Shown here: in pieces, positions 1 to 55,502 of the stretch
How positions within the stretch are numbered: position 1 is the stretch's first letter
Layout of the letters: every line of letters begins with the position of its first letter
From: Cyclobacterium sp.
GTDB lineage: Bacteria; Bacteroidota; Bacteroidia; Cytophagales; Cyclobacteriaceae
DNA: 57,179 bases
Assembly: GCF_014762705.1 (NCBI RefSeq)
Contig: NZ_JABURL010000083.1
Span: forward strand, 1-57,179
Reading direction: 5' to 3'
Notes under the pieces: model-generated
What the model was told of the DNA's origin: nothing
Seen by the model: the letters and a program-made list of their open reading frames with translations, nothing else
Database searches by the model: none
Made by a program: the position numbers and the translations under genes

Positions 1-1
1 T

Positions 2-94: not shown

Positions 95-194
95 TAACAG
101 AGTTTTGGTGGTGGTGAAAATAATGAAATAAGCTTCCCCTTCTATTAACTTCATGGTTACGGTGGAACCCACATAGCCAAACTGGCTGCCGACC
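7..194. repeat. Imperfect inverted repeat (about 64-bp arms) closing the truncated susC
   Basis: Positions 7-70 match the reverse complement of 131-194 without gaps at 51 of 64 positions by hand count. Weaker symmetry (14 of 30, including a run of seven) continues to the axis at 100/101. Both arms code for the same SusC segment in opposite directions. The gapless symmetry down to the axis suggests a fold-back event, while the conservative amino-acid changes argue for two diverged paralogues. Confidence 0.7.
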
Positions 195-4064: not shown

Positions 4065-4073
4065 TTTTGCCCC

Positions 4074-6232: not shown

Positions 6233-6371
6233 TTGACGGGAAATCCGCTGTGACTTCAGGACACCGGAAGCCGTAAAAAACCGGCAATCCTTTGAAATCA
6301 GTTTCTTTTAAAGTAATTTTCTTTTTTTATTCCATCCGGATATATTTTCGGGTTAAAATCCTAATTGTCCC

Positions 6372-6875: not shown

Positions 6876-6876
6876 T

Positions 6877-10343: not shown

Positions 10344-10395
10344 GACGGTGTTGTTTTTTCTTTTGGAAGCGCTTTGGTTATTACCCAAAATTCGC

Positions 10396-10463
10396 AAACC
10401 TGTCAGGTTTTTGTTGATATTCAATCAACAACAAACTTTGAGTAAATGAAACCTGACAGGTTT
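10396..10463. repeat. Nested palindromic repeat (AAACCTGTCAGGTTT family)
   Basis: Two exact 15-bp inverted copies, AAACCTGTCAGGTTT at 10396-10410 and AAACCTGACAGGTTT at 10449-10463, enclose a smaller perfect hairpin TTGTTGAT/ATCAACAA (10411-10418 and 10424-10431). Each 15-mer is itself near-palindromic. It lies between two co-directional genes and could act as an mRNA processing or termination hairpin, or be a copy of a dispersed REP-like element. Confidence 0.8.
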
Positions 10464-10537
10464 TACGTGATTTTCTTGACCAGATTCAACCCATCAAAAC
10501 ACGACTAGGGTTGGCGGATGATGGAATAAAGCAATCA

Positions 10538-11455
10538 CTATTTCTGGTATTTTTCGAATAATTGGTAAGCCCGGGTCAGGTCATTTACCAGGGTAGCCTC
10601 ATTGATTGGCGGGGCCATTTCTACCAAAAGGTAACCTTCATACCCATGCTCCAGCATTTTTTGAATCACCCCATCATTGTCTGTCACGCCTTCACCAAAA
10701 TTGACCACCTTATGGACACCCATTTTTTCGGTATCCTTGATGTCTATGTGGAGGATTTTTTCGTGAAATTTATCCACGACCTCCATCAGGTCCACATTGG
10801 AACCATTGAAGTGGGCATTGTCCATGCACATGCCCAGATGGCTGGAATTAACGGCATCAAAAATTTTTCCATAATCCTCAATGAATTCGATGTTGTTATT
10901 GGCATGGTTTTCCAGCAGGAGCAGTACATCCATTTCTTCCGCAGCAGGGGCTAATTCCCGAACGATTTCCACCACGGCTTCGGGACCTCCAGCTTTCCCC
11001 CGGCCGGCCCCGGTACATTTTACACGGCGGCAACCGAGTTTTTTTGCTGCTTCCATCAGCCACAGTTTATGGGCAACATCCTTTACGATGTTTCCTTCTG
11101 CCCCAAAGGAGCTGCCCTGCACACAGATGGGGGTCAAGCCATGTTCGTAGCAGCGTCGCTGTATGCTGCCAATGCCCGAAGGGGTAAGGTTACGGCCATA
11201 CCAGCAGTTGAATTCCACATTTTTAAAAGGGAGTTGAGGAATGATTTCAAAGGCTTTCTCAAAGTTCTCGTCCCCAAATCCATCGCAGGTGATGGTGGCA
11301 ATGGCCAATTCCACCTTTTTTTCCTGGCTTATTGAATGCCGGAAGTTTCCCAGAGAATCGGGCTGAAAAGATGCCAGGCCTGCCATGCCCAAACCTGCTT
11401 TTTTAAGAAATTTACGCCGGTCATGCGTTGAATCCTGAAGGTTTACGTTTTTCAT
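10538..11455 (-). CDS. Sugar phosphate isomerase/epimerase-like TIM-barrel protein with Tat-type leader
   Basis: A xylose-isomerase-like TIM barrel of 305 residues. The N-terminus has a twin-arginine-type leader (RRKFLKKAGLGMAGLASF at about 14-31), so export to the periplasm is likely. Metal-site features typical of the superfamily are LLLENHANN, GMCMDNAHFNG, ILHIDIKDTEK and a final GYLLVEM. It lies 195 bp upstream of the PVC-type haem lipoprotein on the same strand, a pairing that suggests joint periplasmic carbohydrate or polyol metabolism. The substrate cannot be read from the sequence. Confidence 0.85.
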   Translation of the reverse strand: MKNVNLQDSTHDRRKFLKKAGLGMAGLASFQPDSLGNFRHSISQEKKVELAIATITCDGFGDENFEKAFEIIPQLPFKNVEFNCWYGRNLTPSGIGSIQRRCYEHGLTPICVQGSSFGAEGNIVKDVAHKLWLMEAAKKLGCRRVKCTGAGRGKAGGPEAVVEIVRELAPAAEEMDVLLLLENHANNNIEFIEDYGKIFDAVNSSHLGMCMDNAHFNGSNVDLMEVVDKFHEKILHIDIKDTEKMGVHKVVNFGEGVTDNDGVIQKMLEHGYEGYLLVEMAPPINEATLVNDLTRAYQLFEKYQK

Positions 11456-11637
11456 GCGCTGCTTTTTATCGTTCCCTAAAGTACTAAAAATTCCAATCAG
11501 AAGCGGTATTTTGCAGCATTGATCCTTTGTGTGCTACTAATTTGGGTTCAATGAATGCAAGTACAATCTGCTAGCTTCCGAGCTAGACCGGATATAAGCC
11601 GCAACTACATGCCTAATTTCCGTTGACAAACGAGAGC

Positions 11638-12005
11638 CGAGGCATTTGCAAAGCCGGATACTACGGACATATGAAAATCACTCCCGGAAATGCGCCCATT
11701 TAGCCATTTCAAATGGTTTTCGGACGGTTCAAATCCGTTTATGACTCCGAAAATATCAGGGTGAAGTGGCATACTTCACCCAGTCTCTATTCTTTTACCA
11801 GGCCTGGGTGTAGATTGCATCTACATCCCTTTTATCCTTTTATTTACGCCAGTGAGGCATTTGCAATGCCGGGTCCCATGGACAGACCGTTTAGAAAATC
11901 ATTGCTGGAAGCGTTTACGTTTAGCCATTGCAAATGGCTTTTAGGCAGGTCTTTTCAATTTACGACGGCGAAGATAGCAGGGTGAAGTGGCCTACTTCAC
12001 CCAGT
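11638..12005. repeat. Two copies of a ~215-bp REP-like palindrome block
   Basis: Three short palindromic motifs recur in the same order about 214-221 bp apart: GAGGCATTTGCAA-GCCGG (11639 and 11853), TTAGCCATT-CAAATGG (11700 and 11921) and the hairpin CAGGGTGAAGTGG-TACTTCACCCAGT (11757-11784 and 11978-12005). The sequence between motifs is less conserved, as expected for old palindromic repeats. No RAYT-type transposase gene is in the window. Confidence 0.75.
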
Positions 12006-12023
12006 GGCGTTCTTCACCCAATC

Positions 12024-12066
12024 TTTTATCTGTGTTAATCTGCGTAATCTGTGGTGCACTTTTTTT
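12024..12066. repeat. Solitary half-unit of the ATCTGTGTTAATCTG repeat family
   Basis: TTTATCTGTGTTAATCTGCG followed by TAATCTGTGGTGCACTTTTTT closely matches the left half of the units in the 39190-39590 array. It sits directly beyond the 3' end of the CAP-domain gene, so the family is dispersed and tends to occupy gene ends. Confidence 0.75.
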
Positions 12067-12074
12067 ATAAGACT

Positions 12075-12614
12075 TTATGGAATATCCTCCATCTCCCCAA
12101 ACCAGACCACCGCATATTCCTTATAGATCCCCACGCCCATGGCTTTCCAATTGGCCACATTGAACGGCGGCAGATTGGCGAGGACAGCATGGTGACCCGG
12201 GCTTTTTTTCCAGACTTCCAGGGCATCTTCCGGTTGGGCGGCAGCAGAGTGCCAGTAGGCAATTTCGTATCCGGGGCTGTCGTATCCTGCGATTTCCTTT
12301 GGCTTGTCCCACATGCAGTTGGGGTCTTTGTGGTTGTCGGTATAGCAGCAATCCGTCCAGGGACCTTCCCTGGACCAGGAATGCATGTTGCAGCGTTTGC
12401 TCTGCTGGTAATTTTCCATCAGGTCTTTGGCGTGGATCTGAGCTACTTTTGTCAGAGCTGTTGAAAGGGGAACTGCCTCCAGGCCCCGGCTCAGCCGATA
12501 GGTATTGATCAGCTCAAACAGTTGTTTTTCATTCGGGGAAACAGTAGGAAAGGCTGTGGATCCGACTGCTCCACTGGTCAGGAACAGCCACAATAAAATC
12601 AAATACATTGCCAT
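12075..12614 (-). CDS. Secreted CAP-domain (SCP-like) protein
   Basis: A small extracellular or periplasmic protein of the CAP superfamily (cysteine-rich secretory, antigen 5, PR-1), 179 residues. A signal peptide (about 1-20) precedes FELINTYRLSRGL, then QIHAKDLMENY, a four-cysteine central segment, the conserved SPGHHAVLANLP and the terminal GVGIYKEYAVVWFGE. The CAP cavity histidine is plausible in IHAKDL and in GHH. The function is unknown. It stands alone: repeats lie on its 3' side and divergent icd on its 5' side. Confidence 0.85.
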   Translation of the reverse strand: MAMYLILLWLFLTSGAVGSTAFPTVSPNEKQLFELINTYRLSRGLEAVPLSTALTKVAQIHAKDLMENYQQSKRCNMHSWSREGPWTDCCYTDNHKDPNCMWDKPKEIAGYDSPGYEIAYWHSAAAQPEDALEVWKKSPGHHAVLANLPPFNVANWKAMGVGIYKEYAVVWFGEMEDIP

Positions 12615-12651
12615 AGAAATTAATGATTACAGATTTTCTAAACGAGGCTGA

Positions 12652-15021
<2,370 letters not shown>

Positions 15022-15044
15022 TTTGATAACTTACACTTTACTTA

Positions 15045-15075
15045 AAAAAAAGCCGCTGAAATCAGCGGCTTTTTT
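15045..15075 (+). terminator. Rho-independent terminator of icd
   Basis: A perfect stem AGCCGCTGA/TCAGCGGCT with a two-base loop, extended by an A-run on the left and a T-run on the right, 30 bp after the icd stop. The A/T symmetry would let it work in both directions. Confidence 0.92.
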
Positions 15076-15405
15076 GCTTATATAGAAATTCCAGGGCTAT
15101 TTGTGCTGAATGGGTATCGTTGCAACGGGCTGAGAAAACTCTCTGGTAATACCGTGAGCGGTAATCCGTACGTATCCAAATCCCCCTTACTAAGGAGGAT
15201 TCACTAAAATTTGGATTTCCTGTTGATTTTTATGGTTTTACTGGGCTACTTAATAGATTAGCAATAATCAAATTAAACCATCAAACTATTTGTTAAATGA
15301 TCTGGATAATCCCGATATTGAAGCCAACATGTTAATAATTTAAATATTCCTGTCGTTTTTATAAAGGAAGAACTCAAAAATAGATTATTGGAAAGGACTT
15401 AGAAT
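15076..15405. other. Intergenic region with one imperfect palindrome
   Basis: About 330 bp without a gene. The only structure noticed is AATCCCCCTT (15179-15188) paired with AAGGAGGATT (15192-15201), a hairpin with one mismatch and a 3-base loop. A segment near 15130-15170 resembles pieces of a TPP riboswitch but lacks the required core. Confidence 0.5.
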
Positions 15406-15846
15406 ATGAAAACCTTCTTTATCGACATTTTTACTTACCACCATCACTTCAATCAAAAACTGATCGACCAACTGATTGCACACGAAAAAAGATTGCCAGA
15501 TCGAACCATCCCACTTTTTTGCCATACCCTGAATGCCCACCAAATTTGGAATTCCCGGATTACCAAAAAAGACACCTTAGGTGTGCACCAAATCCATCCA
15601 CTGGAGGCCTGCAAAAGTTTAGATCGGGAAAATTATCAGGAAACCCTGCAGATTTTAGAGGAGAGAGCACTGGATGAAATGATCGTATATGGCAATTCAC
15701 AAGGAACAGAATTTACCAATACGGTTCAGGAGATCTTATTCCACGTGGCCAATCATTTCAGCCACCACAAAGGACAGATCATATCGGATTTCAGGCAAAG
15801 TGGCATTGCGCCTATTAAAACTGACTATATTTTATACAAAAGGTAA
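15406..15846 (+). CDS. DinB family protein
   Basis: A four-helix-bundle metalloprotein of the DinB/YfiT superfamily, 146 residues. The three metal ligands expected for the fold are visible: His45 in NAHQIW, and His117 and His121 in the HxxxH of ANHFSHHKGQI. Such proteins include thiol-dependent transferases and uncharacterised stress-induced enzymes; no substrate can be proposed. It stands alone, followed by decayed sequence. A second, dissimilar DinB protein is encoded at 43366-43878. Confidence 0.85.
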   Translation: MKTFFIDIFTYHHHFNQKLIDQLIAHEKRLPDRTIPLFCHTLNAHQIWNSRITKKDTLGVHQIHPLEACKSLDRENYQETLQILEERALDEMIVYGNSQGTEFTNTVQEILFHVANHFSHHKGQIISDFRQSGIAPIKTDYILYKR

Positions 15847-15948
15847 AAAAGTACATCTTATCCATTAACATCAAGGACTCCTTTGAAAACGTATTGGAAA
15901 GGATCACCTTTTTTGATAAAGACTCCAACCCTATTGTTAAAAAAATAT

Positions 15949-16134
15949 ATGCATCAAAGAAAAAGTTTTACCTTAAAGAATTTAGAAGCAGATTACAATT
16001 ATTTTAAGGATTTCTATGCCCGTGCGGATTTATAAATAGATATAAGCAACATCGCCCTGGATGCTTTTCCGATTGAGATAATGAAAGCATTGACCAGTTT
16101 AACTGATCTAAGTGATTTAAACTATGAAAAACAA
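15949..16134 (+). pseudogene. Possible remnant of a small gene, interrupted by one stop codon
   Basis: The ATG at 15949 opens 28 codons ending FKDFYARADL and a TAA at 16033. The same frame then continues as IDISNIALDAFPIEIMKALT to a TAA at 16132, overlapping the next gene's ATG (16124). The uninterrupted amino-acid character on both sides of the stop suggests a nonsense-mutated gene, but I do not recognise the family and this could be chance. Confidence 0.3.
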
Positions 16135-16861
16135 TAAAACACTTGTCATCGGTGCCAGTGGCGCTACAGGAAAGCACCTGGTAAGCCAACTGCTGCTGCT
16201 GGGGCAAGGCGTCAAAGTTATCGTTCGTCCCCATGCGAAAATACCCAATGCCTGGCTAACAAATGACAAAGTCTCCGTCTTTAGGACTGAAATATCCAGC
16301 CTCAGTGAGGCAGAATTAGCTGATTACATTAAAGATTGTCAGACCCTGGCTTCCTGTCTTGGCCACAACCTGAGCTTGAAAGGCATTTATGGTGCTCCTC
16401 GAAAATTGGTAAGCCAATCCGTTCAGTTGCTTTGCCGGGCTGTTGAAAAGAATAAATCCAAAAATCCCGTCAAGTTGGTGTTGATGAATACGGCCGGCAA
16501 CCAAAACAGAGACTTATCCGAACCTGGTTCTTTCGCAGAAAAATGCATGATCGCCCTTATCCGGCTGCTGTTACCACCCCATACCGACAATGAAGCAGCC
16601 GCTGATTTTCTAAGAAATCAAATCGGCCAAAAGCACCCATTCCTTGAATGGGTGGTGGTACGGCCGGACACATTGATTGACAGGGAAGAAGTCTCCGATT
16701 ATACCTTACATGCTTCTCCAACAAGAAGCGCACTTTTCAATCCGGGTAAAACCAGCCGGATAAATGTAGCGCATGCTATGGCCAAACTGATTGGAGAAAA
16801 TGGCCTATGGGAAAAATGGAAAGGACAAATGCCTGTAATCTACAATAAAGAAATAAAATGA
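16124..16861 (+). CDS. NAD(P)-binding oxidoreductase (atypical SDR, NmrA/YwnB-like)
   Basis: A Rossmann-fold protein of 245 residues with the dinucleotide loop IGASGATGKHLV (about 7-18) and a following basic residue in VIVRPH that favours NADP. LVLMNTAGN and the WVVVRPDTLID segment are typical of NAD(P)H-binding atypical short-chain dehydrogenases such as biliverdin reductase B-like and YwnB-like proteins. It lacks a clear YxxxK, as in many of these. The substrate is unknown. It is followed by a hairpin shared with the convergent ompA gene. Confidence 0.8.
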   Translation: MKNNKTLVIGASGATGKHLVSQLLLLGQGVKVIVRPHAKIPNAWLTNDKVSVFRTEISSLSEAELADYIKDCQTLASCLGHNLSLKGIYGAPRKLVSQSVQLLCRAVEKNKSKNPVKLVLMNTAGNQNRDLSEPGSFAEKCMIALIRLLLPPHTDNEAAADFLRNQIGQKHPFLEWVVVRPDTLIDREEVSDYTLHASPTRSALFNPGKTSRINVAHAMAKLIGENGLWEKWKGQMPVIYNKEIK

Positions 16862-16932
16862 AACGAAACTTGATACCATCATCGGGCTTAAGGAATGCTA
16901 TCCGGAACAGGAAAATACAATGGTAAAAAGCA

Positions 16933-16956
16933 AAGCCCGGTAAGTAGACCGGGCTT
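16933..16956 (-). terminator. Hairpin between convergent oxidoreductase and ompA genes
   Basis: AAGCCCGGT (16933-16941) pairs perfectly with ACCGGGCTT (16948-16956) around a six-base loop. Read on the - strand it follows the ompA stop and is succeeded by a short T-rich stretch (TTTGCTTTTTACC), so it probably terminates ompA. Confidence 0.6.
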
Positions 16957-16966
16957 CTTAAAATAA

Positions 16967-17812
16967 TTACATCAAAGCAAAAAACTTATCCAGATCCGGA
17001 ATCAATATGATCCGGGTTCTTCGGTTTTTGGCCATATTTTCAGGGCTGTCATTTTCCACTACCGGGAAAAAACTGCTCCTTCCGGCTGCAATCAGTTGTT
17101 CCGGAGCTACAGCATGATTCTCCACCAGCTTTCTGACAATAGATGTTGCCCGCTTTACACTCAGGTCCCAGTTATCCTGAACGGTAGCTGTAGAAATCGA
17201 CCTGGGATCAGTATGACCCTCCACCATTACCTCCAGGCTGGGTTCCGAATTGATAACTGCGGATAGTCTCTCCAGCAGTGGATTGGCTTCCTGATTTACC
17301 CGGAAACTTCCAGTGTTGAACAATAGCCGGTCCGAAACCGAAATCATGACCACTGTTTTGTCAATATCAATGACAATGTCCTCCTCCTGTTCGTTTCCTT
17401 TTCCACCGATAGCCGTTAAAAGATTATGAGAAATCGCCAGGTTAACGGAGTCCTCAAGGGTCTTTGCCTGAGCCAATTTTTCGGTATCTATCTTGCTAAT
17501 GGTCTTTTCCAATTGCATTCTCAATTGGTCAGAAACCAAGATATCTCCGCTTTGAGACATCATCCTGCCATTCTTTTCCAGTAATTGTTCATTATCACCC
17601 CTCAAGGAATTAATTTTGGCGTTGTACTCGGCTACCCTGCTTTGGATTTGGTCGAATTTGGCTTCAAGGGCCTCCTTTTCAGAGCTGGTTTGGGCCAACT
17701 CAACCTGAGTGCTGTGCAATTCCCCCTGAAGGGAGGTGTATTTCTTTTTGGACACACAGGAAGCCAGGCCTCCCATGATCAATAATGTGAAAATAAAAGG
17801 TAGTTTTTTCAT
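16967..17812 (-). CDS. OmpA family lipoprotein
   Basis: A peptidoglycan-binding outer membrane lipoprotein. The ATG at 17899 is in frame, but the ATG at 17812 places a lipoprotein signal, LLIMGGLASC, at the N-terminus and is preferred. A coiled-coil region (about 25-100, rich in E, Q, L and K) is followed by a C-terminal OmpA domain with LFNTGSFRVN, the diagnostic VMVEGHTDPRS and WDLSVKRATSIVRKL, then RRTRIILIPDLD. It probably tethers the outer membrane to the cell wall. It is divergent from the DUF1549/DUF1553 gene with 193 bp between starts. Confidence 0.9.
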   Translation of the reverse strand: MKKLPFIFTLLIMGGLASCVSKKKYTSLQGELHSTQVELAQTSSEKEALEAKFDQIQSRVAEYNAKINSLRGDNEQLLEKNGRMMSQSGDILVSDQLRMQLEKTISKIDTEKLAQAKTLEDSVNLAISHNLLTAIGGKGNEQEEDIVIDIDKTVVMISVSDRLLFNTGSFRVNQEANPLLERLSAVINSEPSLEVMVEGHTDPRSISTATVQDNWDLSVKRATSIVRKLVENHAVAPEQLIAAGRSSFFPVVENDSPENMAKNRRTRIILIPDLDKFFALM

Positions 17813-18005
17813 GGTAATTAATCGTTGGTTTTCTTGAAATAGCCCCAATTCAAAAACAGGGCCAATTTTCAATTTCCCTTCCTTACACCAGGCTATCAAT
17901 GGGGTTTCTTTCCATCAGAGGGCCTATTATTTTATGAAAATATGGGAACTGAGTAAAATTTCGATTAGTTTTAACTTTATCATTAAACTTGTCCCATGTA
18001 AAATA

Positions 18006-21000
18006 ATGTTAGTACGTTATTTATGCATATTTAGTATCACCCTGGCCGTTTCCTGCAAGCCAAACCTGCCGGAAGAAATAAAAATCGCCATGGAAGAATT
18101 GCCGGAGGAATTGGATTTCAACATTCATGTGAAGCCCATTCTATCAGACAATTGTTTTTCCTGCCATGGGCCGGATGAAGCAGCCAGAGAAGCCGGAGTC
18201 CGGCTGGATCTGCCAGAAGCAGCCTATGCTCCTACCTCAGAAAGTGGCTTGATTCCCATCAAGCCCGGAAAACCCGGAAAAAGCGAAGTTTTCCACAGGA
18301 TTCTTTCTGAAGATCCCGACTACCTGATGCCCAGCCCGGAATCTCACCTTAGCCTTACCGACCGGGAAAAGGCCATCATTGTCAAATGGATTGCATCCGG
18401 TGCGGAGTATAAAAAGCACTGGGCATTTATCCCGGCAAACAAGCCTGAATTGCCCGATCCAAAAATGGATAATTGGTCCGTACAGCCCATTGATCTGTTT
18501 GTTGCTCAGAAACTGCATCACAACGGTTTAAAACCCAATGAAAAAGCGGATAAGGAATTGTTACTCAGAAGACTAAGTTTGGACCTAACCGGTTTGCCTC
18601 CAAGCCTGGAAGAACTGGATGCCTTTTTGGCCGATGATTCAGAAAAGGCTTATGAAAAACAGGTAGACCGTTTGCTCTCTTCTCCACATTATGGTGAACA
18701 AATGGCCATGCATTGGATGGATGTGGCTCGTTTTGCCGATACCCATGGCTATACGGTAGACCGCTTTAGAGACATGTCTCCCTGGAGGGATTGGGTCATT
18801 GAAGCATACAACCAAAACATGGGGTACGATCAGTTTATCACCGAGCAGCTTGCCGGGGATCTTCTGCCCAACCCTACTAAAAAACAAATGCTGGCCACGG
18901 CATTTAACCGAATCCATCCGCAAAACATGGAAGGGGGTATCGTACAAGAAGAGTTTAGAGTTGAATATGTCGCAGACAGGACCAATACGGTAGGCAAAGC
19001 ATTTATGGCCCTGAGTTTGGAATGTGCCCGGTGTCATGACCACAAATACGATCCAGTAAGTCAAAAAGAATATTTTCAAATGAGCAGCTTTTTCAATCAG
19101 GTGGACGAAGCCGGTCAGATCTCCTGGGATAATGCCATGCCTGTGCCCACCATGCTCTGGACAGATAGTGAAAAGGACGCCCTGCTGGAAATGTTGAAAA
19201 AGGAAATAACGGAGACAGAAAAAGCACTCAGCGCTATCAAAATTGCTGAAAAAGCTGATTTTGACAGCTGGATAAGCAGTCAAGGGTATAAAGAAACGCG
19301 CTTTTACCGTCCTGCTACTTCCTTGATCGCGCACTTTGATTTTGATGAGGTTCCCTTGCAGGACAAGGTAAATCCTTCCATAGCCGGTAGTATGGAAAGT
19401 ATAGGAGAGGAAAGTAAACAACCGCCTTTGGTGGACGGGTACCGGGGAAAAGCGGCTTCTCTTAATGGTGACTCCTGGCTGAAAATGGGGGGCGTAGGAA
19501 GTTTTTCCAAGGACCAACCCTTTAGCGTGGGAATTTGGCTCACTGTTCCCGAAAATCTGGATAATGGGGCCATTTTTCATACCGGAGACGGAGCGGTACT
19601 TTACAATCGACGCGGTTATCATTTATACTTGAAAGATAACAAGTTGGAAATGATTCTTGCCCACACGGCTCCTTACAATGTCATCAGCAACCTTACTCTG
19701 GAAGGTATACCGAGAAATGAATGGATACATCTATTGATGACCTATGATGGCTCCTCCAAAGCTTCGGGAATAAAAACCTACCTGAACGGAAAACTAATGG
19801 CCAGCAAAACGGTCAAAGACAAGCTATACAAAGACATTTTATTTGACCGCAATAACCAACCGGGTATTCAAATTGGCGCCGTTTGGAGAGGTAAGGGACT
19901 GAAAGGGGCCGCAGTTGATGAGCTGAAGGTATTTGATAAGGAATTGTCGGCAGTGGAGATCATGCAGTGGCTACAACCAGATCTGCTGGCAGCCATACTA
20001 AAAAAATCTCCAAACGATTTGAGTTCGGAGGAAAGAAATGCAATGGAAAGCTTTTACTGGCACAACCTTTCTCCGGCCTACAAAAGTCAACTTAAAAAAT
20101 TAGCGGCCGCAAGAAAAAAGCATTCTGAGACGGTAGAACCCATACAGGAGGTCATGATCATGCAAGACATGGAACCCAAAAGACCTACTTTTGTACTGGA
20201 AAGAGGGGAATACCATGCTCATGGAGAGGAAGTGCAGGCCGGGACTCCAGAAGCCATATTACCCATGGCAGATGCTTATGAAAAAAACCGGCTTGGACTG
20301 GCCAAATGGCTCCTGGATGAGCGTCATCCCCTCACCGCCCGGGTGGCAGTCAATCGGCTTTGGCAGCAATTTTTCGGCAGGGGGCTGGTGGCTACAGCCG
20401 CTGACTTTGGCAATCAGGGAGAAATGCCCAGCCATCCTGAATTACTGGATTGGCTGGCGGTAACCTTCCGGGAATCTGGCTGGGACGTGAAAAAGCTTCA
20501 GAAAATGATCGTCCTTTCCGAGACCTACAAACAATCGTCCGTGACGAGCCCGGAACTTCTGGAAAAAGACCCTGAAAACATTTTGCTGGCCAGGGGACCT
20601 TCTGGAAGAATGCCCGGAGAAATGATCCGTGACAATGCCTTGCTGGCAAGTGGCATGCTGGGTAAAACCATCGGCGGCCCCAGTGTGAAACCCTACCAAC
20701 CCGACGGTCTTTGGTCAGTCAATGGCGGCCAATACACAGAAGATACAGGGGAAAATCTTTTCCGGCGCAGTCTGTATACCCTGTGGAAAAGATCTGTTCC
20801 ACATCCTACCCTACATATTTTTGACAGTCCGGAGCGTTCTGAAACCACGATCAAAAGGCAGGAGACCAATACCCCGCTTCAGGCTTTGGTTTTGATGAAT
20901 GACCCCATTTATGTAGAAATCGCCAAGGTGCTGGGTGCCGGCATTTCCCGGCATCAGGAAACCCGGCAAGGCATACAGGAAGCATTCCGAAAACTTACGG

Positions 21001-38609: not shown

Positions 38610-38848
38610 TACTCTTTTCGATTCGTACTACTTGCTTACCTCCCTAAAAACATTCCCAGATAGCTAACTGCTTACAAAATACCAGATCTTCCCAACTTCA
38701 TTAGTCAAAAAATCCTGCATTTCCTCCCGTAAATTCCCTAACAAGATAGTGGCTTTTTTTGGAAGGGGAAAATCTTTTTACACCAAAAGTACAGGAACTG
38801 ATTCGCAGGGTTTCCACAGATTTTTTGGGGATTTCTTTGAGCAGATCT

Positions 38849-39064
38849 TTATTTATCCTCTGCCGCATGGTCTTCATTTATAGCACCCGCCACATGGCCA
38901 AACATTTGGAGTACCTGATTGACCTTTGTCAAACTGAGGTTTTCTTTGCCCTGTTCAATCTTTCGAATAACCGTAAGTGCAACCCCTGCCTTTTCTGCGA
39001 ATTCTTCCTGCGTGATGGCCAATTTCCTCCTTCTCGTCTTTACAAAATCTGATAATTGGCTCAT
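38849..39064 (-). CDS. HTH XRE-family regulator, HipB/Y4mF antitoxin-like
   Basis: 71 residues from the ATG at 39064 (an in-frame upstream ATG at 39100 adds 12 atypical residues). A single lambda-repressor-like HTH (TRRRKLAITQEEFAEKAGVALTVIRKIEQGKENL) and a short tail LTKVNQVLQMFGHVAG are diagnostic of Y4mF/HipB-type antitoxins, which normally precede a HipA kinase. No HipA-like sequence follows in 38610-38848, so it is an orphan. It may now regulate the nuclease genes located downstream on the same strand. Confidence 0.85.
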   Translation of the reverse strand: MSQLSDFVKTRRRKLAITQEEFAEKAGVALTVIRKIEQGKENLSLTKVNQVLQMFGHVAGAINEDHAAEDK

Positions 39065-39100
39065 ATTATATGCATTAACGTATAATACTATCTGATTCAT

Positions 39101-39588
39101 TTAAATTATATGTAAAAGGATATCATTAAATGTTCACCCAGATTAAAATAACCCTTTTGTTTTGGTTTCATGTAAACCAGATTAATGCATAATTTATCTG
39201 TGCTAATCTAAGTAATCCGTGGTGCACTTTTTTCACCACAAATTTACATGGATTTGCACAGATAATTTTTTTTCTACCAAATGATAAAATCCCCAATTTA
39301 TCCGCGTTAATCTGTGCTAGCTGTGGTGAATCCACTTTTTTTCACCACAGATTCTCACGGATTTCCACAGATTTTTTTTGGCTTATTAGATGATAGTCAA
39401 ATCATCACTTATTTATCTGTGTTAATCTGCGCTATCTGTGGTAAACTCTTTTTCCACCACTGATTCTCACGGATTCGCACAGATTATTTTTTTCCTGAAT
39501 ATAAACCTGACCCAATCCCCAATTTATCTGTGTTTATCTGTGTTATCCGTGGTGCCTATTTTTCCTGAACCTATCTGTGGTGAATTTA
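39101..39588. other. Gene-free region occupied by a palindromic repeat array
   Basis: Between the HTH gene and the 3' end of the dipeptidyl-peptidase gene. Almost all of 39190-39590 is repeat; the first 90 bp is AT-rich and should contain the HTH gene promoter, but no clear element was identified. Confidence 0.7.
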
Positions 39589-39590
39589 TT
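39190..39590. repeat. Array of 3.5 palindromic ~110-bp units (ATCTGTGTTAATCTG family)
   Basis: Units begin near 39191, 39295, 39409 and 39520 with TTTATCTGTGTTAATCTGNG-type sequence leading to CTGTGGTG. After a T-rich turn they run back as CACCACAGATTCTCACGGAT and TTGCACAGAT, so each unit is a long imperfect hairpin. The fourth is a half-unit followed by a short extra CTATCTGTGGTGAATTTATT. Spacings are about 104, 114 and 111 bp. The same sequence occurs once at 12024-12066. Confidence 0.88.
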
Positions 39591-41439
39591 ATTCTGTAGC
39601 CGCCTGATAGGCCTCCATACCTCCCACTACCGGCAATTGCAGGTAGCTGGCATCCAGGTCCACTGTCAGCTCCGTGCCGGGTTCAGGCCAGAGGGTAAAT
39701 TCCTTGTCACTGGAAAAAATCAACAAACCGATCTGCTGCCCTTTGGGTATGATCTGATCATCAGGCTGCAGCTCAAAGGAAAGCGAATAAAACCGGCCCC
39801 GCTTCAAGGGCTCGCTTTCTGTCAGGGAACGGTGATTTTGCGGATCGGCCCAACCTCGGGTGATGATATTGTCCGTAATCTTGGCATTTTTTCCTTCGTT
39901 CCAGGGCAGGGAAACCAGCCAAACGGAGAGATTGGCGGCAGGCTTGCTGGAAGCCAGCCGGATGTTCATCTCTGCAAGCCCTGAGAGGTGCAGGTCCTCC
40001 TTCAGCTCCGGACTTAAAAACAACAAGCGGTGATCGGTAATTTCGGCCCTGGCCAGTGAAGCTCCGTCAAAGGAAAAATTGTCCACCAGGGTTTCCTTTC
40101 CCTGCCGGGCTGGTTTCTCCAGCTGCAGCTTACCTGCTGCCGGGGCGGCCCCTTCCAGAAAAAGCGGGACGGCTTCAGATTGTGGATGGGGGTAGGCTTC
40201 ATAGGGGGACGGATTCTCCTGACTGTCATTTTCCCGAACGATCCATACTTTTGGATCGTCTTCAACCCCGTTTTCTACCCCGTGCAGGTACCGGGTAAAC
40301 CAGCGGTTCATCATGCGCATGGGAGGCGGTCCGCCATGCCCGTCCTGGTGATAGTACAATTGCACCGGAAGGCCCATGGATTCGGCTTTTTTATAGATCC
40401 GGTAACTGTGTTCGGGCATCACATTCCAGTCGTTGAATCCGTGCGCCATCAGCAGGGCGGCTTTCATGGGCTCCATCTGGTTCAGGTAATCCCTGCCCGC
40501 CCAAAAATCATTGTAGTCTCCGGTCACCCGATCCATGCCTTCCTTCATTTCGATATCGCGGATACGGGCATTGTTCCCGGCCCTTTTGGAGGTGTCGCCA
40601 CTGTGGATAAAATCATACAATACGTCAATATCTTCTCCCAGGTAACCTCCCGGAGAACGCACCAATCCATGGGAGCGGTAATAATGGTAGTAGGAAGTAT
40701 TGGGCGCTATGGGAATGATGGCTTCCAGTCCCTCCACGCCAGTAGTGGCTGCGGCCAGGGGAATGGTGCCATTATAGGAAGTGCCGGTCATGCCTACCTT
40801 TCCGGTAGACCAATAGGCCTCCACAGGATCTCCTCCCTGAGGATGGGTGAAGCCTTTGGCCCTTCCACAGAGCCAGTCGATTACGGCTTTGGGAGCCAAA
40901 GATTCGTTTTTACCACCCACGGTAGGGCTGCCTTGTGACAAGCCTGTTCCCGGAGAGGAGGAATGTACCAGGATATAGCCCCTGGGCACCCAGGTTTGGA
41001 TATGCGAATCGGAAATAAATGGCCGGTTGTTGATGGGGGTTACTTGCGGAGAGACCCTTTCTTCCGGCGGGTAACCCAGTTCGTGACGCACATCCCAGAA
41101 CAAGCCGTCCACATCCGGTGCCACCCCTGCAAAATAAGGACTGCTGACATAAATCACGGGCAATTTTAAGCCTTCATATTCGGTTTGGTAAGGACGGGTC
41201 ACGGCCACATGCATGCGGTCGGGTTGCCCGTCGGCATCTGAATCAAATTCGGTTTCAACCCACAGGTCATGCCGGATCCAGCGGGAAGGATCCTTGAAGG
41301 CCAGCACTTCCTGTGCTTCGCCATTCTCAATTCTGGGTTTTGCACCGGATTGAGCTGGCAGCAAGTGAATGGTCCATCCATTTGCCAGGATCAGGCAAAG
41401 GAGCGTCAATGGATAAAGTATTCCTGATCTATTGTTCAT
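39589..41439 (-). CDS. Xaa-Pro dipeptidyl-peptidase (S15/CocE family)
   Basis: A secreted serine peptidase removing X-Pro dipeptides from proline-rich peptides. The 616 residues begin with a signal peptide (about 1-29, ending HLLPAQS). The alpha/beta-hydrolase core has the nucleophile GTSYNGTIP, the acid in LMAHGFNDWNV and the histidine in YHQDGHGGPP. The jelly-roll C-terminal domain (RGWADPQNHRSL, PKGQQIGLLIFSSD) completes the X-Pro dipeptidyl-peptidase architecture; the size is closer to the bacterial CocE/PepX group than to the 760-residue lactococcal PepX. It stands alone, next to a repeat array. Confidence 0.88.
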   Translation of the reverse strand: MNNRSGILYPLTLLCLILANGWTIHLLPAQSGAKPRIENGEAQEVLAFKDPSRWIRHDLWVETEFDSDADGQPDRMHVAVTRPYQTEYEGLKLPVIYVSSPYFAGVAPDVDGLFWDVRHELGYPPEERVSPQVTPINNRPFISDSHIQTWVPRGYILVHSSSPGTGLSQGSPTVGGKNESLAPKAVIDWLCGRAKGFTHPQGGDPVEAYWSTGKVGMTGTSYNGTIPLAAATTGVEGLEAIIPIAPNTSYYHYYRSHGLVRSPGGYLGEDIDVLYDFIHSGDTSKRAGNNARIRDIEMKEGMDRVTGDYNDFWAGRDYLNQMEPMKAALLMAHGFNDWNVMPEHSYRIYKKAESMGLPVQLYYHQDGHGGPPPMRMMNRWFTRYLHGVENGVEDDPKVWIVRENDSQENPSPYEAYPHPQSEAVPLFLEGAAPAAGKLQLEKPARQGKETLVDNFSFDGASLARAEITDHRLLFLSPELKEDLHLSGLAEMNIRLASSKPAANLSVWLVSLPWNEGKNAKITDNIITRGWADPQNHRSLTESEPLKRGRFYSLSFELQPDDQIIPKGQQIGLLIFSSDKEFTLWPEPGTELTVDLDASYLQLPVVGGMEAYQAATE

Positions 41440-49463: not shown

Positions 49464-49898
49464 CTAACCTTTCTGAATGTTTTGAATCACCCGATTAATT
49501 TTTTCAAACAGCGTAAAAAACGATTTCATTTCCTGTTCTGAAAGAACATTCCTAACCTGTTCGTTAAAATACTTTATAGTCTGTACCGCAACGGATTTTT
49601 TTTCCTTTCCCAGTGGTGTAAGAAATATTCTTACGGATCTTTTATCGACCGGATCCGGAGATTTTCTAATCAATCCCTTCTGCTCCATGGATTTTAAGAT
49701 CCGGGTCAAACTTCTGGATTCCAAACCCATCAAGGGGGCAATTTTTGTTGCTGCCGCTCCTTCGGTAGAATCAATATTAATCAGAACAAATCCCATAGAT
49801 GTCGTAAGGCCCTCCATATTGGCTTTTTGATTGTACATTCTGGATATGGAATGCCAGCAGGATTTGATATGAAAATCTATCGTTTCTTCCTTTTTCAT
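49464..49898 (-). CDS. MarR family transcriptional regulator of the fad operon
   Basis: A 144-residue winged-helix regulator with the MarR arrangement: N-terminal dimerisation helix, helix-turn-helix (STEGAAATKIAPLMGLESRSLTRILKSMEQKGLI) and wing SPDPVDKRSVRIFLTPLG (DKRSxxxxLTxxG). Being the first gene of a fatty acid degradation operon, it probably senses acyl-CoA or a fatty acid and represses the cluster. A perfect 10-2-10 inverted repeat starts 3 bp upstream of its ATG and is the likely autoregulatory operator. Confidence 0.9.
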   Translation of the reverse strand: MKKEETIDFHIKSCWHSISRMYNQKANMEGLTTSMGFVLINIDSTEGAAATKIAPLMGLESRSLTRILKSMEQKGLIRKSPDPVDKRSVRIFLTPLGKEKKSVAVQTIKYFNEQVRNVLSEQEMKSFFTLFEKINRVIQNIQKG

Positions 49899-49901
49899 CA
49901 G

Positions 49902-49923
49902 TTAAAGTTAATCTTAACTTTAA
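49902..49923. promoter_or_regulatory. Probable MarR operator (10-2-10 inverted repeat)
   Basis: TTAAAGTTAA (49902-49911) and TTAACTTTAA (49914-49923) are perfect inverted repeats separated by TC, right before the marR ATG. The symmetry, half-site size and position are as expected for a MarR dimer site. Binding there would block the ribosome-binding region and the operon promoter. Confidence 0.7.
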
Positions 49924-49936
49924 GTTACTGAAAATA

Positions 49937-49952
49937 ATTATGCATGCATAAT
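49937..49952. promoter_or_regulatory. 16-bp perfect palindrome upstream of marR
   Basis: ATTATGCATGCATAAT is an exact palindrome 13 bp beyond the first inverted repeat. It could be a second operator (different half-site) or a site for another regulator of fatty acid catabolism. Confidence 0.5.
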
Positions 49953-50502
49953 AAAACGGATAATTTATTTTTGAGAATCATCTAGGTATAAACTGCATTT
50001 AAAATAAAGAATCGATTCAAAAATAAGCCACCTAAGAACTACGATTCAAAAACAGAAAAGAGATATCAACAAGGATATAACAATTAGAAAAGATTGAATT
50101 AAAAAAATCTATTGTTATTATTATAAGGTGGATATGTGGGTATCTCAGTTAAATAAATGTTTTCAACTTTTCTCCCTCATCAATTTACTTTCATCAACAG
50201 CTTATACACAATTATTTCTTGCTTAATTTAGTGTAAATGAGATGTTTAATTTGATTCGGTTGTTTTTGGTTGATAATGTGTTTCAAGCAATGATGTGTAT
50301 ATTTATTTTGGTGGTTAGGTGTTGATAAGGGTTGATAAAAATGGACTTATCACCAGGGATACATTTCTATACGGTAATGGCTTTTTTTAATGAACTTCCG
50401 TTGTTTGTTATTCAGGTCTTTTTGTTTTTTATCCACTGTTAATTTTGTCTTATCAACAGTTTTTCTCTTGAAATAAAATTAACATAATTGTCTGATTATG
50501 AG

Positions 50503-52251
50503 TTAATTAAGTAAGTCTTCTTCAGTAATGGTCAAAATTTCAATGGGTAATTTTATTGCGGGTCCATCCTTGGTCATATCTTCTTCTATATTAAACCCAG
50601 AATTTAATTTTGGTTCTATAACCAGGTCATCTAATGTCCATCCTCCTCTCAAAATAAACTCATGTTTGTTGGTTTCTTCATCAAAGAAGGCATAAATAGG
50701 TTCTGGTTGAATATTCTCATAATAATTACCTGGATCCCATCTTCTGTTTTGATTTCTGTCAATAATGGCTTGTATCTTGTAATTGGTAGCTTCTATGGCC
50801 TTGAATTCAAAATAATTGGTGTCAGTCAGGTATATTTCTCTGATGAGCTGTCCTTTGCTATTGAGTAGTTGTAAGATAATCGGTCTTTCGTTTATATTAA
50901 CTGTTCCATTAATACCGTCTGCAAGATTATCAGTTTTCAACCGTGTGTAAGTAGCGTCTACAGGTGACTCATTCCAAAGACCTTCCACATCCATAAATGT
51001 AGAATCAGCTGCAAATAGCTTAAAAGAACTGTTCTTTACCGAATCGGGTAATGCTATATTAATGTTAATCGTAGTATGTAAATGACTGCTGTCAGGTATA
51101 CTGACCATTGATTGATTTATCGGGATATAGGAAGCGGAATCATACTGTACGTAAAGGGAATCGTAGACTATTTGGTAAAGAGGTTTGTTAAAGTCCAGTT
51201 TTGCCTGGATAGTTTGATTAAACTTGGCACCCGTGTTGGTAGTTATTTTCAATTCTTCTTTAGGTCGGTCGCTTTCTTCAAACTTTGCGTATAATGTTGT
51301 ATCAACCTTAAAACCTACTGAATCTTGAAGTAGTATGTTGACTGGAATGCTATCATTTTTGATTGTTCTATGATATAGCCTGATGTTTTTATCATTGATT
51401 CTGTAAAAAAGGTTGGTATTGATATCCGGATGGACTATAGAAAATTCCGCTAGAGGTTTGCTAAGAATGATATCGAAATTTGAGCCTGTGCTTGAACTTC
51501 GATTAATTTTTAATGGCGATAAATCTCCTTTGGCTAAATTGAAGTGTAAATTTTGCCGGTTTTTATCTATGGTAATGGTGTCTGGTGCAAAGCCATAAGC
51601 TTCATTTCTGTATTCTGCCTTTAAGGATCCGTTCTCATCATGCCAGGCGTAAGCCTTGAATGTCCCGGCCTTAATATTCGTTATCTCGTAATATCCGGTT
51701 GAGTCGGGTTGTGCAATGTAATACGGCGGAGCATTGAATAAATCTGTAGTGTCGGCAATGCTGTACAGACCGACAAGGACATCTTCGAAATTTTGTTCCA
51801 CAAATGGATCAATATAAGCAACCGTACCTGAAACTTTTAAACTATCAATATTTTCGCCAGTGGAAAATACAAGTTTCAATCTCTCTGCGGGATTGCCTTC
51901 TGTAATGTCTTGTATACTTTTTTGAAAATTGAATAAGTAAGTTGTATTTTCTTCCAATTCCTGATTCAATTCAATATTGACTCTATTTTTGATAGCCAGA
52001 AATTCCATTTTATCTTTTTCAACTCTTGGTGTAATGATTATGGATTGGTTTGGGTTTTCTAATTTCACATATTCATTAAATTCCAAATTGATTTCTGAAG
52101 GTGAGGTGTTCGTACTTTCATTTTGTGGATTGGAGTATAGCAGGACTGGTGGATCTTCATCTACTGGTCCACCCATTGGAGAGCTTTGTTTTGCACATGA
52201 GCTAATAATTAGAGTGGTTATTGGAAGAAAGTACCTAAAGATGAACCTCAT
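50503..52251 (-). CDS. Lipoprotein with SbsA-type Ig-like domain
   Basis: A 582-residue secreted lipoprotein (signal ending LIISSC, Cys19). After a GGP-x-D-x-DPPVL linker an Ig-like domain (about 38-130; NEYVKLENPNQSIIITPRVE, NTTYLFNFQKSIQD) is followed by a carboxypeptidase-regulatory-like/DUF2141-like region (YYEITNIKAGTFKAYAWHDEN) and a repeated later copy (NYKIQAIIDRNQNRRWDPGNYYENIQPEPIYAF). This is a conserved Bacteroidota cell-surface family of unknown role. The start codon overlaps the upstream methyltransferase stop by 4 bp. Confidence 0.85.
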   Translation of the reverse strand: MRFIFRYFLPITTLIISSCAKQSSPMGGPVDEDPPVLLYSNPQNESTNTSPSEINLEFNEYVKLENPNQSIIITPRVEKDKMEFLAIKNRVNIELNQELEENTTYLFNFQKSIQDITEGNPAERLKLVFSTGENIDSLKVSGTVAYIDPFVEQNFEDVLVGLYSIADTTDLFNAPPYYIAQPDSTGYYEITNIKAGTFKAYAWHDENGSLKAEYRNEAYGFAPDTITIDKNRQNLHFNLAKGDLSPLKINRSSSTGSNFDIILSKPLAEFSIVHPDINTNLFYRINDKNIRLYHRTIKNDSIPVNILLQDSVGFKVDTTLYAKFEESDRPKEELKITTNTGAKFNQTIQAKLDFNKPLYQIVYDSLYVQYDSASYIPINQSMVSIPDSSHLHTTININIALPDSVKNSSFKLFAADSTFMDVEGLWNESPVDATYTRLKTDNLADGINGTVNINERPIILQLLNSKGQLIREIYLTDTNYFEFKAIEATNYKIQAIIDRNQNRRWDPGNYYENIQPEPIYAFFDEETNKHEFILRGGWTLDDLVIEPKLNSGFNIEEDMTKDGPAIKLPIEILTITEEDLLN

Positions 52252-53133: not shown

Positions 53134-54999
53134 TTATCTCCCTAGGTATATGGTTATAATGGACATGTCTGCGGGTGAAACACCACTTATTCTGGATGCC
53201 TGGCCTATGGTTTCTGGCTTGATCTTGTTTAATTTTTGTCTTCCTTCTGCTGAAAGTGCCTTTATGGTTGAATAATCCATATGGCTGGGAATTTTCATAT
53301 TGTCCAGATTGCTTATTTTTTCCACCATTTGTCTCTCTTTGTCTATATAGGATCGGTACTTGATCTGAATTTCTGCTTGCTCGAGTACATTTTTATCAAA
53401 TGGAGCTAACTCATCTTTTAGCTCTTGATTCATTCTCATCAGATCGCTTATTCCCAACTGGGGCCGTTTCAGTAATTTTTCTATGGTAGTATTTTCTTTG
53501 ATTGTAGCCGTTTTGTTTTGAATCAATGCAGCATTTATAGCGTCCGGGGTAACCCGGATTTTTTCCAGTTTGGCTATGAGCTTTTCAGTATCGTACATCT
53601 TGTCTTTCATTAACTGATAGTTGGTTTCATCAGCTAAATTCATTTGATAACCATAGGATGTCAATCGGAGATCAGCATTATCCTGACGCAATAGCAGTCG
53701 GAACTCAGCTCTGGAAGTAAACATTCTATAGGGTTCTTCTGTGCCTTTATTGATCAGATCATCTATCAAAACGCCAATATAAGATTCTGAGCGTTTAAGG
53801 ATAAATGGTTCTTCATCCTTGATTTTTTTATGAGCATTGATGCCGGCAATTAATCCCTGTGAGGCTGCTTCCTCATATCCTGTAGTACCGTTAATTTGTC
53901 CTGCAAAAAAGAGGTTGTCAATCAATTTAGTTTCCAGACTCAATTTTAACTGTGTGGGAGGAAAATAGTCGTATTCTATGGCATAACCAGGTCGGAACAT
54001 TTTGGCATTTTCAAAGCCGGTTATTTTCCTCAAAGCCTTGAATTGTACGTCTTCCGGCAAAGATGTGGAAAAGCCATTTACATATATCTCTACCGTGTCC
54101 CAGCCTTCCGGTTCGACAAAAATTTGATGCCGGTCTCTTTCGGCAAACCGATTGATCTTGTCTTCTATGGAAGGGCAATAGCGTGGTCCCAGTCCTTGAA
54201 TTCTGCCATTAAACATGGGGGACCTGTCAAAGCCCTCTGTAAGCGAGTCGTGGACCTCTTTATTCGTATAGGTGATCCAACAGCTTCTCTGCTTAATGGG
54301 TGCCTGGGTAGTTGGAGAATAGGAAAATTTCTCGGGATTTTCGTCTCCTTCTTGTTCTTCCATCAAGGAATAATTCAAGCTTCTCCCGTCAACTCTGGGA
54401 GGAGTACCAGTCTTCATTCTGCCTGATTCAAAGCCCAATTGACGCAAATCTTCGGTAATTCCTGTTGCTGCCTTCTCTCCTGTTCTTCCTCCCCCCATTT
54501 GTTTTTCTCCTATATGGATGATACCATTTAGGAAGGTCCCATTAGTCAGGACCACCGACTTTGCCTGAATCTCGAGTCCTAATCCTGTTCTAACCCCTGC
54601 GATTTTCTTGTTTTTGACGATGAGACCCGTAACCATTTCCTGCCAGAAGTCTACGTTGGGGGTGTTTTCTAATATCAACCGCCATTCTTCGGCAAATCTC
54701 ATTCTATCGTTTTGGCTTCTTGGAGACCACATGGCTGGTCCTTTAGACCTGTTGAGCATCCGGAATTGTATCATTGACTTGTCTGCAACGATTCCTGACT
54801 TACCTCCCAATGCATCAATCTCCCGAACTATCTGCCCTTTTGCTACCCCTCCCATAGCTGGGTTGCATGACATCTGCGCTATGGTGTTCATGTTCATCGT
54901 ACATAACAATACCCTTGAACCCATTTTTGCTGCAGCTTGTGCTGCTTCACAACCGGCATGCCCTGCCCCTACTACGATTACATCATAAATTGGAAACAT
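53134..54999 (-). CDS. mnmG: tRNA uridine-5-carboxymethylaminomethyl modification enzyme
   Basis: With MnmE it installs the cmnm5 group at wobble uridine 34 of several tRNAs, using FAD, NADH and methylene-tetrahydrofolate. 621 residues: the FAD fingerprint VVGAGHAGCEAAQAAAKMG (about 9-27), CNPAMGGVAKGQIVREIDALGG, the PRVDGRSLNYS region, GYEEAASQGLIAGINAH and the C-terminal helical part with RYKSYIDKE-like YRSYIDKER. One parS-like palindrome lies 16-31 bp upstream of the ATG, a second inside the 3' end of ybeY. mnmG is frequently adjacent to oriC. Confidence 0.97.
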   Translation of the reverse strand: MFPIYDVIVVGAGHAGCEAAQAAAKMGSRVLLCTMNMNTIAQMSCNPAMGGVAKGQIVREIDALGGKSGIVADKSMIQFRMLNRSKGPAMWSPRSQNDRMRFAEEWRLILENTPNVDFWQEMVTGLIVKNKKIAGVRTGLGLEIQAKSVVLTNGTFLNGIIHIGEKQMGGGRTGEKAATGITEDLRQLGFESGRMKTGTPPRVDGRSLNYSLMEEQEGDENPEKFSYSPTTQAPIKQRSCWITYTNKEVHDSLTEGFDRSPMFNGRIQGLGPRYCPSIEDKINRFAERDRHQIFVEPEGWDTVEIYVNGFSTSLPEDVQFKALRKITGFENAKMFRPGYAIEYDYFPPTQLKLSLETKLIDNLFFAGQINGTTGYEEAASQGLIAGINAHKKIKDEEPFILKRSESYIGVLIDDLINKGTEEPYRMFTSRAEFRLLLRQDNADLRLTSYGYQMNLADETNYQLMKDKMYDTEKLIAKLEKIRVTPDAINAALIQNKTATIKENTTIEKLLKRPQLGISDLMRMNQELKDELAPFDKNVLEQAEIQIKYRSYIDKERQMVEKISNLDNMKIPSHMDYSTIKALSAEGRQKLNKIKPETIGQASRISGVSPADMSIITIYLGR

Positions 55000-55013: not shown

Positions 55014-55031
55014 GTGTTCCACGTGGAACAC
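55014..55031. promoter_or_regulatory. parS-like centromere site 1
   Basis: GTGTTCCACGTGGAACAC is an 18-bp perfect palindrome. Its core GTTCCACGTGGAAC differs from the classical ParB-Spo0J site TGTTTCACGTGAAACA at two symmetrical positions, and it is of the type reported in several phyla. It lies in the mnmG 5' untranslated region. Confidence 0.75.
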
Positions 55032-55055: not shown

Positions 55056-55502
55056 TTAAAGTGTTCCACGTGGAACACTTAGTGATTGAAACAAGTTCAG
55101 TGCTTTTTCCTCTTCCTCCCTCATCCGTTTTTTTTCCTTTGTACTTTTATCTTTTAATCCACAAAGGTGAAGGAGACCATGTATCAATACCCTTAAAAGT
55201 TCCTCATGATAGATTACTCCCAGGGTGGTTGCATTTTCTTTTACACGATCAATGCTGATATAAATATCCCCCTCAATTTCTCCTTCCTGCTCTGCCTGGT
55301 CAAAGGTGATAATATCTGTGAATGTATCATGGTTTAAATAATTTCTATTGATTTGTAACAGGTAATCATCCGTGCAAAAGATGTAATTGAGGGTTGAAAT
55401 ATGGAATCCTTTTTCTTTTGCTGCTGTTTTAATCCAATCCTTGATTTTTCTTTTTTGGTTAATTCTTGATTGGACTCCTTCTTCAAAGAAATTTATGGCC
55501 AT
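55056..55502 (-). CDS. ybeY: Endoribonuclease YbeY (rRNA maturation)
   Basis: A zinc-dependent RNase for 16S rRNA 3'-end maturation and ribosome quality control. 148 residues with YIFCTDDYLLQINRNYLNHDTFTDIITF (conserved strand region) and the metal motif in VLIHGLLHLCGLKDKS. The usual motif is HGxLHLxGxDH; here the third histidine position is Asp, a variant seen in Bacteroidota. The final VPRGTL is coded by a parS-like palindrome. It starts one base after the anti-sigma-like gene stop. Confidence 0.92.
   Translation of the reverse strand: MAINFFEEGVQSRINQKRKIKDWIKTAAKEKGFHISTLNYIFCTDDYLLQINRNYLNHDTFTDIITFDQAEQEGEIEGDIYISIDRVKENATTLGVIYHEELLRVLIHGLLHLCGLKDKSTKEKKRMREEEEKALNLFQSLSVPRGTL
55061..55080. 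promoter_or_regulatory. parS-like centromere site 2, partly inside the ybeY coding end
   Basis: AGTGTTCCACGTGGAACACT is a 20-bp perfect palindrome, 47 bp from site 1 and with the same 18-bp core. Read on the - strand it encodes the last ybeY residues VPRGTL, so the site is fixed within the coding end of ybeY. Confidence 0.75.

Follow-up and report, generated by a model that had tools for sequence, protein, structure and literature searches.

The intergenic gap at positions 49899–50502 of the stretch of DNA analysed here (the window, 57,179 nucleotides) is almost certainly the chromosomal replication origin (oriC) of the Cyclobacterium from which it comes. The computed basis for this consists of the position of the turn in GC skew, a cluster of DnaA boxes, the weakness of the DNA duplex, a conserved core and linkage to parS. 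The binding of DnaA, melting at 50076–50125, the loading of helicase and the action of ParB are proposed by analogy with other bacteria.

The locus and its neighbouring genes

A draft Cyclobacterium genome (G000; 6.08 Mb in 125 contigs) contains the window as its contig C28, and the closest named relatives, judged by the Big_5 protein encoded beside the gap, are Cyclobacterium species (C. plantarum, 95% identity). To the left of the gap, beyond a gene for a MarR-family regulator, lies a gene for a fused 3-hydroxyacyl-CoA dehydrogenase/enoyl-CoA hydratase; to the right there are genes for a Big_5 lipoprotein and a methyltransferase, then mnmG, ybeY and a HATPase gene. The homologous locus was compared among relatives, of which the best 80 of 428 were kept and one (L187) was left out for its short flank, giving 79 loci. 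The features of the locus are collected in Table 1.

A preliminary description of this DNA had put mnmG at 2.6 kb from the gap and two parS-like sites at 4.5 kb, and both distances hold (mnmG begins at 53134, and the palindromes lie at 55016 and 55063). It had also raised the objection that all flanking genes are on the minus strand; this is true of the near neighbours, but the skew still turns at the gap when the genes of the two strands are separated.

Table 1. Features of the origin gap and its surroundings (positions in the window).
Feature	Position	Strand	Basis or remark
MarR-family regulator gene	49464–49898	-	Left border of the gap; detected in 49 of 79 loci
Almost certain oriC, intergenic gap	49899–50502		Between the MarR gene and the Big_5 lipoprotein gene; box cluster, skew turn, conservation
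Left flanking DnaA box, degenerate, ATATCAACA	50063–50071	+	Two mismatches; aligned with TTATACACA in 4 of 12 congeners
Probable DNA unwinding element	50076–50125		Nearest-neighbour stability; abuts the tandem pair
Core tandem DnaA boxes, ATATCCACC (50127–50135) and ATACCCACA (50135–50143)	50127–50143	-	Two mismatches each
DnaA box TTATACACA	50202–50210	+	One mismatch
DnaA box-like TTATCAACC	50268–50276	-	Two mismatches
DnaA box TTATCAACA	50320–50328	-	One mismatch
DnaA box-like TTATCAACC	50330–50338	-	Two mismatches
DnaA box-like TTATCACCA	50347–50355	+	TTATCMCCA in 12 of 12 congeners
DnaA box TTATCCACT	50429–50437	+	One mismatch; alignment
DnaA box TTATCAACA	50450–50458	+	One mismatch; alignment
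Big_5 (Ig-like) lipoprotein gene	50503–52251	-	3′ end adjoins the origin gap; syntenic marker
mnmG (gidA)	53134–54999	-	Classical origin-linked gene; same side in 79 of 79 loci
parS palindrome GTTCCACGTGGAAC	55016–55029		Exact GTTNCACGTGNAAC match
parS palindrome GTTCCACGTGGAAC	55063–55076		Exact GTTNCACGTGNAAC match

Two perfect palindromes, TTAAAGTTAATCTTAACTTTAA (49902–49923) and ATTATGCATGCATAAT (49937–49952), lie inside the origin gap directly upstream of the MarR gene, and the second of them is kept in several congeners. They are possibly operators for the MarR regulator.

DnaA boxes in the gap

The gap has a G+C content of 27%. It holds four nine-mers that differ from TTATCCACA by one mismatch each (at 50202 and 50429 on the plus strand, and as TTATCAACA at 50320 on the minus strand and 50450 on the plus strand) and eight more with two mismatches (including TTATCAACC, which occurs on the minus strand at both 50268 and 50330), making 12 in total, on both strands. 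The words TTATACACA at 50202 and TTATCCACT at 50429, both on the plus strand, are present as first described, and the earlier count of seven boxes within about 260 bp agrees with the 8 of these 12 boxes that fall in 50202–50458. In 1000 dinucleotide shuffles of the gap the mean counts were 0.26 (at most one mismatch) and 3.1 (at most two), and the observed 4 and 12 were reached in none of the 1000.

Counted as words with at most one mismatch, boxes are denser in the gap than at any other place in the window, and each of the nine other gaps of at least 250 bp to the left of the origin gap has at most one such box. One of the other gaps in the window, of 982 bp (38610–39591), has 10 box-like words with two mismatches and none with one; thus, the two-mismatch count alone is not decisive. 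A search of the whole genome for TTATNCACA was uninformative, with 192 matches to the word itself and 134 to its reversed control.

The conserved core and the AT-rich stretch

The alignment across relatives that the preliminary description had called for is possible for the gaps of 12 Cyclobacterium genomes, in which the box array is conserved. The order of the elements is fixed in all 12: a box on the plus strand (at 50063 in the window), about 50 AT-rich bases, GTGGATATGTNGGTA, and then the array of boxes up to 50458. Within the AT-rich bases, 50076–50125 is the weakest 50-bp duplex of the 57-kb window, although by a small margin (48.4 kcal vs 49.3 kcal for the next weakest), and in 9 of the 12 Cyclobacterium gaps the least stable part of the aligned stretch is at the same place. 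Thus, as judged by computed stability, the boxes have next to them the easily melted AT-rich element expected of an oriC.

The plus strand of the core at 50128–50142 is GTGGATATGTGGGTA. Read on the minus strand, GTGGATATGTNGGTA consists of two DnaA boxes that have one base in common. Ten of the 12 congeners have it without a mismatch in the gap, and the other two have it with one. In G000 and in two complete congeners, G002 and G011, exact GTGGATATGTNGGTA occurs once per genome, always in the homologous gap; G003 and G008 each have one further exact match to the core pattern elsewhere in the genome. Exact matches alone were used for these genome-wide searches, the pattern with one mismatch being so loose that controls were nearly as frequent.

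Across the family, the core has no or one mismatch to one of three variants in 36 of the 79 loci and two mismatches in a further 37 of the 79, a conservation that is inflated by the choice of the core as the best match; control stretches (1.35 kb elsewhere in the 79 loci, one strand) gave no core match with fewer than two mismatches. The flanking columns were not chosen in this way. In 73 loci (the 6 of 79 with more than two core mismatches being left out), the 50 bp to the left of the core have 14% G+C, with T at position -7 in 97%, at -10 in 88% and at -16 in 89%. Adenines recur beside the core with a spacing of 3 nucleotides, on the DnaA-box strand and not on its complement.

The turn in GC skew

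Raw GC skew at the 20-kb scale was misleading, being confounded by runs of genes on one strand (e.g. at 1.86 Mb in G011). Because of this confounding by gene orientation, skew was calculated from G and C at the third codon positions of long open reading frames, separately for the genes of each strand, in the top-strand reading, and the two strands were averaged. As the window's own assembly is in 125 contigs, complete congeners stand in for the chromosome-wide skew.

For the complete congener G011, 40 stretches of 20 kb were sampled, which cover 0.8 of 6.16 Mb. Of the 25 stretches running from 5.27 Mb through the record start to 2.06–2.08 Mb, 23 have negative skew; the other two have +0.006 (1.70 Mb) and +0.045 (2.02 Mb), and the second of these values comes from very few plus-strand genes. 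From 2.08 to 4.98 Mb it is positive in all 14 stretches that have genes on both strands, a fifteenth having no minus-strand genes. The cumulative count, taken gene by gene over 2.04–2.10 Mb, has its minimum between a gene end at 2,068,733 and a gene start at 2,069,558, i.e. in the homologous gap. The opposite turn falls somewhere in 4.98–5.27 Mb, an interval that includes the point half a chromosome from the gap, 5.15 Mb. In the complete congener G002, sampled in 7 stretches (0.14 of 6.22 Mb), the cumulative skew over the stretch 2.09–2.12 Mb has its minimum in the homologous gap at 2,105,447–2,106,302, and the flanking and far stretches carry the expected signs. The cumulative skew of the window itself has its minimum at the gap, with only 6.7 kb to the right of it. 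The expected turn near the locus is present, with noise, in the 23 stretches sampled from G023 (same family) and the 21 from G045 (another family); in the 9 stretches of G040 (another family) the skew is too slight to be informative. Thus, the skew minimum that separates replichores falls in the exact gap in the sampled G011 and G002 and, as a local minimum, at the gap in the window, and the minimum elsewhere in the chromosome that the preliminary description had allowed for did not appear in these samples.

The position of the turn also bears on the likeliest alternative to oriC, namely that the gap is a cluster of boxes that titrates or reactivates DnaA (datA-like or DARS-like), near the true origin and not at it. 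In E. coli, clusters of DnaA boxes are known outside oriC, and boxes alone cannot discriminate between the two. Against this explanation are the turn of the skew within this very gap in G011 and G002, the presence in the gap of the window's weakest duplex beside a conserved tandem pair, and the fact that no other sampled stretch of G011 (800 kb) or G002 (140 kb) equals the gap in box density, which together make such a cluster improbable.

Conservation in Cyclobacteriaceae and beyond

In 76 of the 79 Cyclobacteriaceae loci the densest 500 bp of boxes is just downstream of the Big_5 gene, i.e., in the gap; the remaining 3 failed this test. The 79 gaps total 39.9 kb, with 30% G+C, and hold 330 boxes, compared with 11.3 on average and 19 at most in 20 shuffles. 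Exact TTATCCACA occurs 54 times in the gaps and twice elsewhere across the same loci. An equal density of such nine-mers in other AT-rich gaps, which the preliminary description had named as an observation that would count against an origin, was not found: the 79 gaps have 8.3 boxes per kb, and 57 other AT-rich gaps in these loci have 0.26 per kb. When scrambled consensus words were used as controls, TTATACACC gave 78 and TTATACCCA 75, the other four gave 2 to 15, and the true consensus gave 330; the high counts of TTATACACC and TTATACCCA come, we think, from overlap with real variants of the box. Thus, both the shuffles and the family loci place the number of boxes in the gap beyond chance, as would be expected of a DnaA-dependent oriC.

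The same data bear on the idea that the gap is a promoter and operator region of the MarR gene, in which AT-richness yields box-like words by chance. The two perfect palindromes upstream of the gene and the 27% G+C speak for it; the boxes exceed those in all 1000 shuffles, and 28 of the 30 loci (of 79) in which MarR was not detected keep their densest box stretch at the gap, so that this idea is very unlikely. That the origin belongs to an integrated plasmid or mobile element and not to the chromosome is less likely still, verging on the negligible: plasmid origins can also have DnaA boxes, yet no evidence of such an integration was found, the same side of the gap has mnmG in 79 of 79 loci, and the gap is where the skew of the G011 chromosome changes sign.

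Among five complete genomes, the densest sampled 500 bp is the homologous gap in four (G011, G002, G040 and G023). In G045, from another family, it is elsewhere, with 3 boxes at 2.108 Mb; this box-dense stretch (L222, G045:C1:2100001-2120000, at about 2.1077 Mb) also has an extreme third-position skew. Farther from Cyclobacterium the signal weakens. Stretches beside a Big_5 match, possibly non-orthologous, were taken from 20 further genomes (19 from other families, 1 from the same family), and in 10 of them some span of 500 bp contains 3 or more boxes. Six of the 20 have no box beside the Big_5 match (L231, L233, L236, L242, L248 and L249, of G037, G039, G043, G050, G057 and G058). In these six genomes the origin may have moved, the boxes may have changed, or the Big_5 match may be non-orthologous; thus, the locus is not the origin, or is not recognisable as such, throughout the order.

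parS, ParB and dnaA

An exact-match search of the entire G000 genome found GTTNCACGTGNAAC at two places only, each at a distance of about 4.5 kb from the gap. There are two exact parS sites each in G000, G002, G011 and G040, and one each in G023 and G045; in 5 of 5 complete relatives (G002, G011, G023, G040 and G045) the sites are within about 5 kb of the homologous locus. The reversed control pattern had no match in any of the six genomes. Thus, the window's genome has exact palindromes near the gap and nowhere else, which is the arrangement of origin-proximal parS. As for ParB itself, G000, G002 and G011 each have one homologue that passes the cut-off. In the two complete congeners this sole homologue is toward the terminus (L229, G011:C1:5367519-5368040; L228, G002:C1:5330859-5331374), at 2.9 to 3.0 Mb from the presumed parS by the shorter way.

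The dnaA gene of the window's genome (G000:C94:12688-14067) is on a contig other than that of the gap. In G002 and G011 dnaA is at the start of the record, about 2.07–2.1 Mb from the skew turn and the homologous gap, and the record coordinates of G023, G040 and G045 put it 0.76 to 3.1 Mb from the locus. An origin linked to dnaA was considered for the relatives and rejected. Around dnaA there are 0–3 scattered boxes per 3.0–4.4 kb in six genomes (in G002 and G011 the upstream side is cut, dnaA being at the record start), and the stretch 1–20,000 of G011, which holds dnaA, has negative skew, like its neighbours.

A possible mechanism and its comparison with BUS and DnaA-trios

Studies of other origins (PMC8287927, PMC7561715) provide a model in which DnaA binds its boxes, spreads and opens an AT stretch. 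On this model, DnaA would bind the array at 50202–50458 and the tandem pair at 50127–50143, and from the tandem pair would extend over the adjacent AT-rich stretch at 50076–50125. This stretch would then melt and admit helicase, and two forks would depart in opposite directions. At the parS pair, 4.5 kb away, ParB would mark and segregate the newly copied origin.

The arrangement resembles the basal unwinding system (BUS) of Bacillus subtilis and others (PMC8287927) in that tandem DnaA boxes abut a weak AT-rich stretch. It is also BUS-like that in 12 of 12 congeners 10 bp separate the upstream box from the beginning of three NAN trios. Unlike the 3′-GAT-5′ consensus described there, the trios at the core are three of 3′-TAT-5′ in 10 of 12 congeners, and, also unlike that BUS, the adenines conserved at the level of the family, with their 3-nucleotide spacing, are here on the box strand. 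Trios that fit 3′-[G/A]A[T/A]-5′ are absent at the core in 10 of 12 congeners; in the window there are three after the box at 50202, and the left box in G011, G002, G010 and C. qasimii is followed by four trios, three of which fit the consensus.

A published relaxed rule for BUS (a box with at most two mismatches, a spacer of 0–16 and at least three NAN trios) is satisfied at the core in 12 of 12 congeners, yet 25 to 43 of 50 shuffles per gap also satisfy it somewhere. Matches number 8 to 24 per gap, compared with shuffle means of 0.9 to 3.8, and chance matches are common. Since shuffles satisfy the trio rule so often, it was not used to assign membership.

A more far-reaching reading, and an unlikely one, is that Cyclobacteriaceae and some other Cytophagales share a type of origin with an unwinding module of its own. 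This module would comprise a fixed tandem pair (plus strand GTGGATWTGTGGRTA) abutting about 50 bp of 14% G+C, with adenines at a 3-nucleotide spacing on the DnaA-box strand, i.e., opposite to the published DnaA-trio strand. Were this so, the other strand would be captured by DnaA or by a different factor. The consensus-fitting trios beside other boxes of the gap make this reading somewhat less probable.

Relation to known origins

Apart from this doubtful module, the locus is an ordinary kind of bacterial origin, linked to parS and, in congeners, remote from dnaA. It is like the bacterial oriC predictions of Ori-Finder and DoriC (PMC10225481) in having a skew minimum, an intergenic cluster of boxes, gidA (mnmG) nearby and an AT-rich unwinding element, and it differs from those origins in that dnaA is remote in the complete Cyclobacterium congeners. 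The complete Cyclobacterium genomes are likely to carry this prediction in DoriC already; a search of the literature, judged by title and separate from DoriC, found no paper on oriC of this genus.

Origins in gut bacteria, two Bacteroidetes included, have been located by parS clusters and GC skew with support from coverage, and it is already published for these bacteria that origins are not necessarily beside dnaA (PMC10197239). The present locus is like them in that a cluster of parS and an inversion of skew mark the origin; it differs in that those origins are of other lineages and are backed by coverage, whereas here there is a computed gap with an anatomy of boxes and an unwinding element. 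Cytophaga hutchinsonii belongs to the same order as Cyclobacterium. Plasmids of C. hutchinsonii are listed as oriC-bearing (PMC5288383), and the likeness of these plasmids to the present locus is one of order and of the oriC label.

Significance for Cyclobacterium

With the gap located, the probable origin of Cyclobacterium is fixed, and its replichores follow from this. As the records of G011 and G002 start at dnaA, about 2.07 and 2.1 Mb, respectively, from the skew turn, analyses that take dnaA as the origin would misplace it in these genomes. The short conserved core provides a concrete target for oriC plasmids and for studies of opening by DnaA in Bacteroidota.
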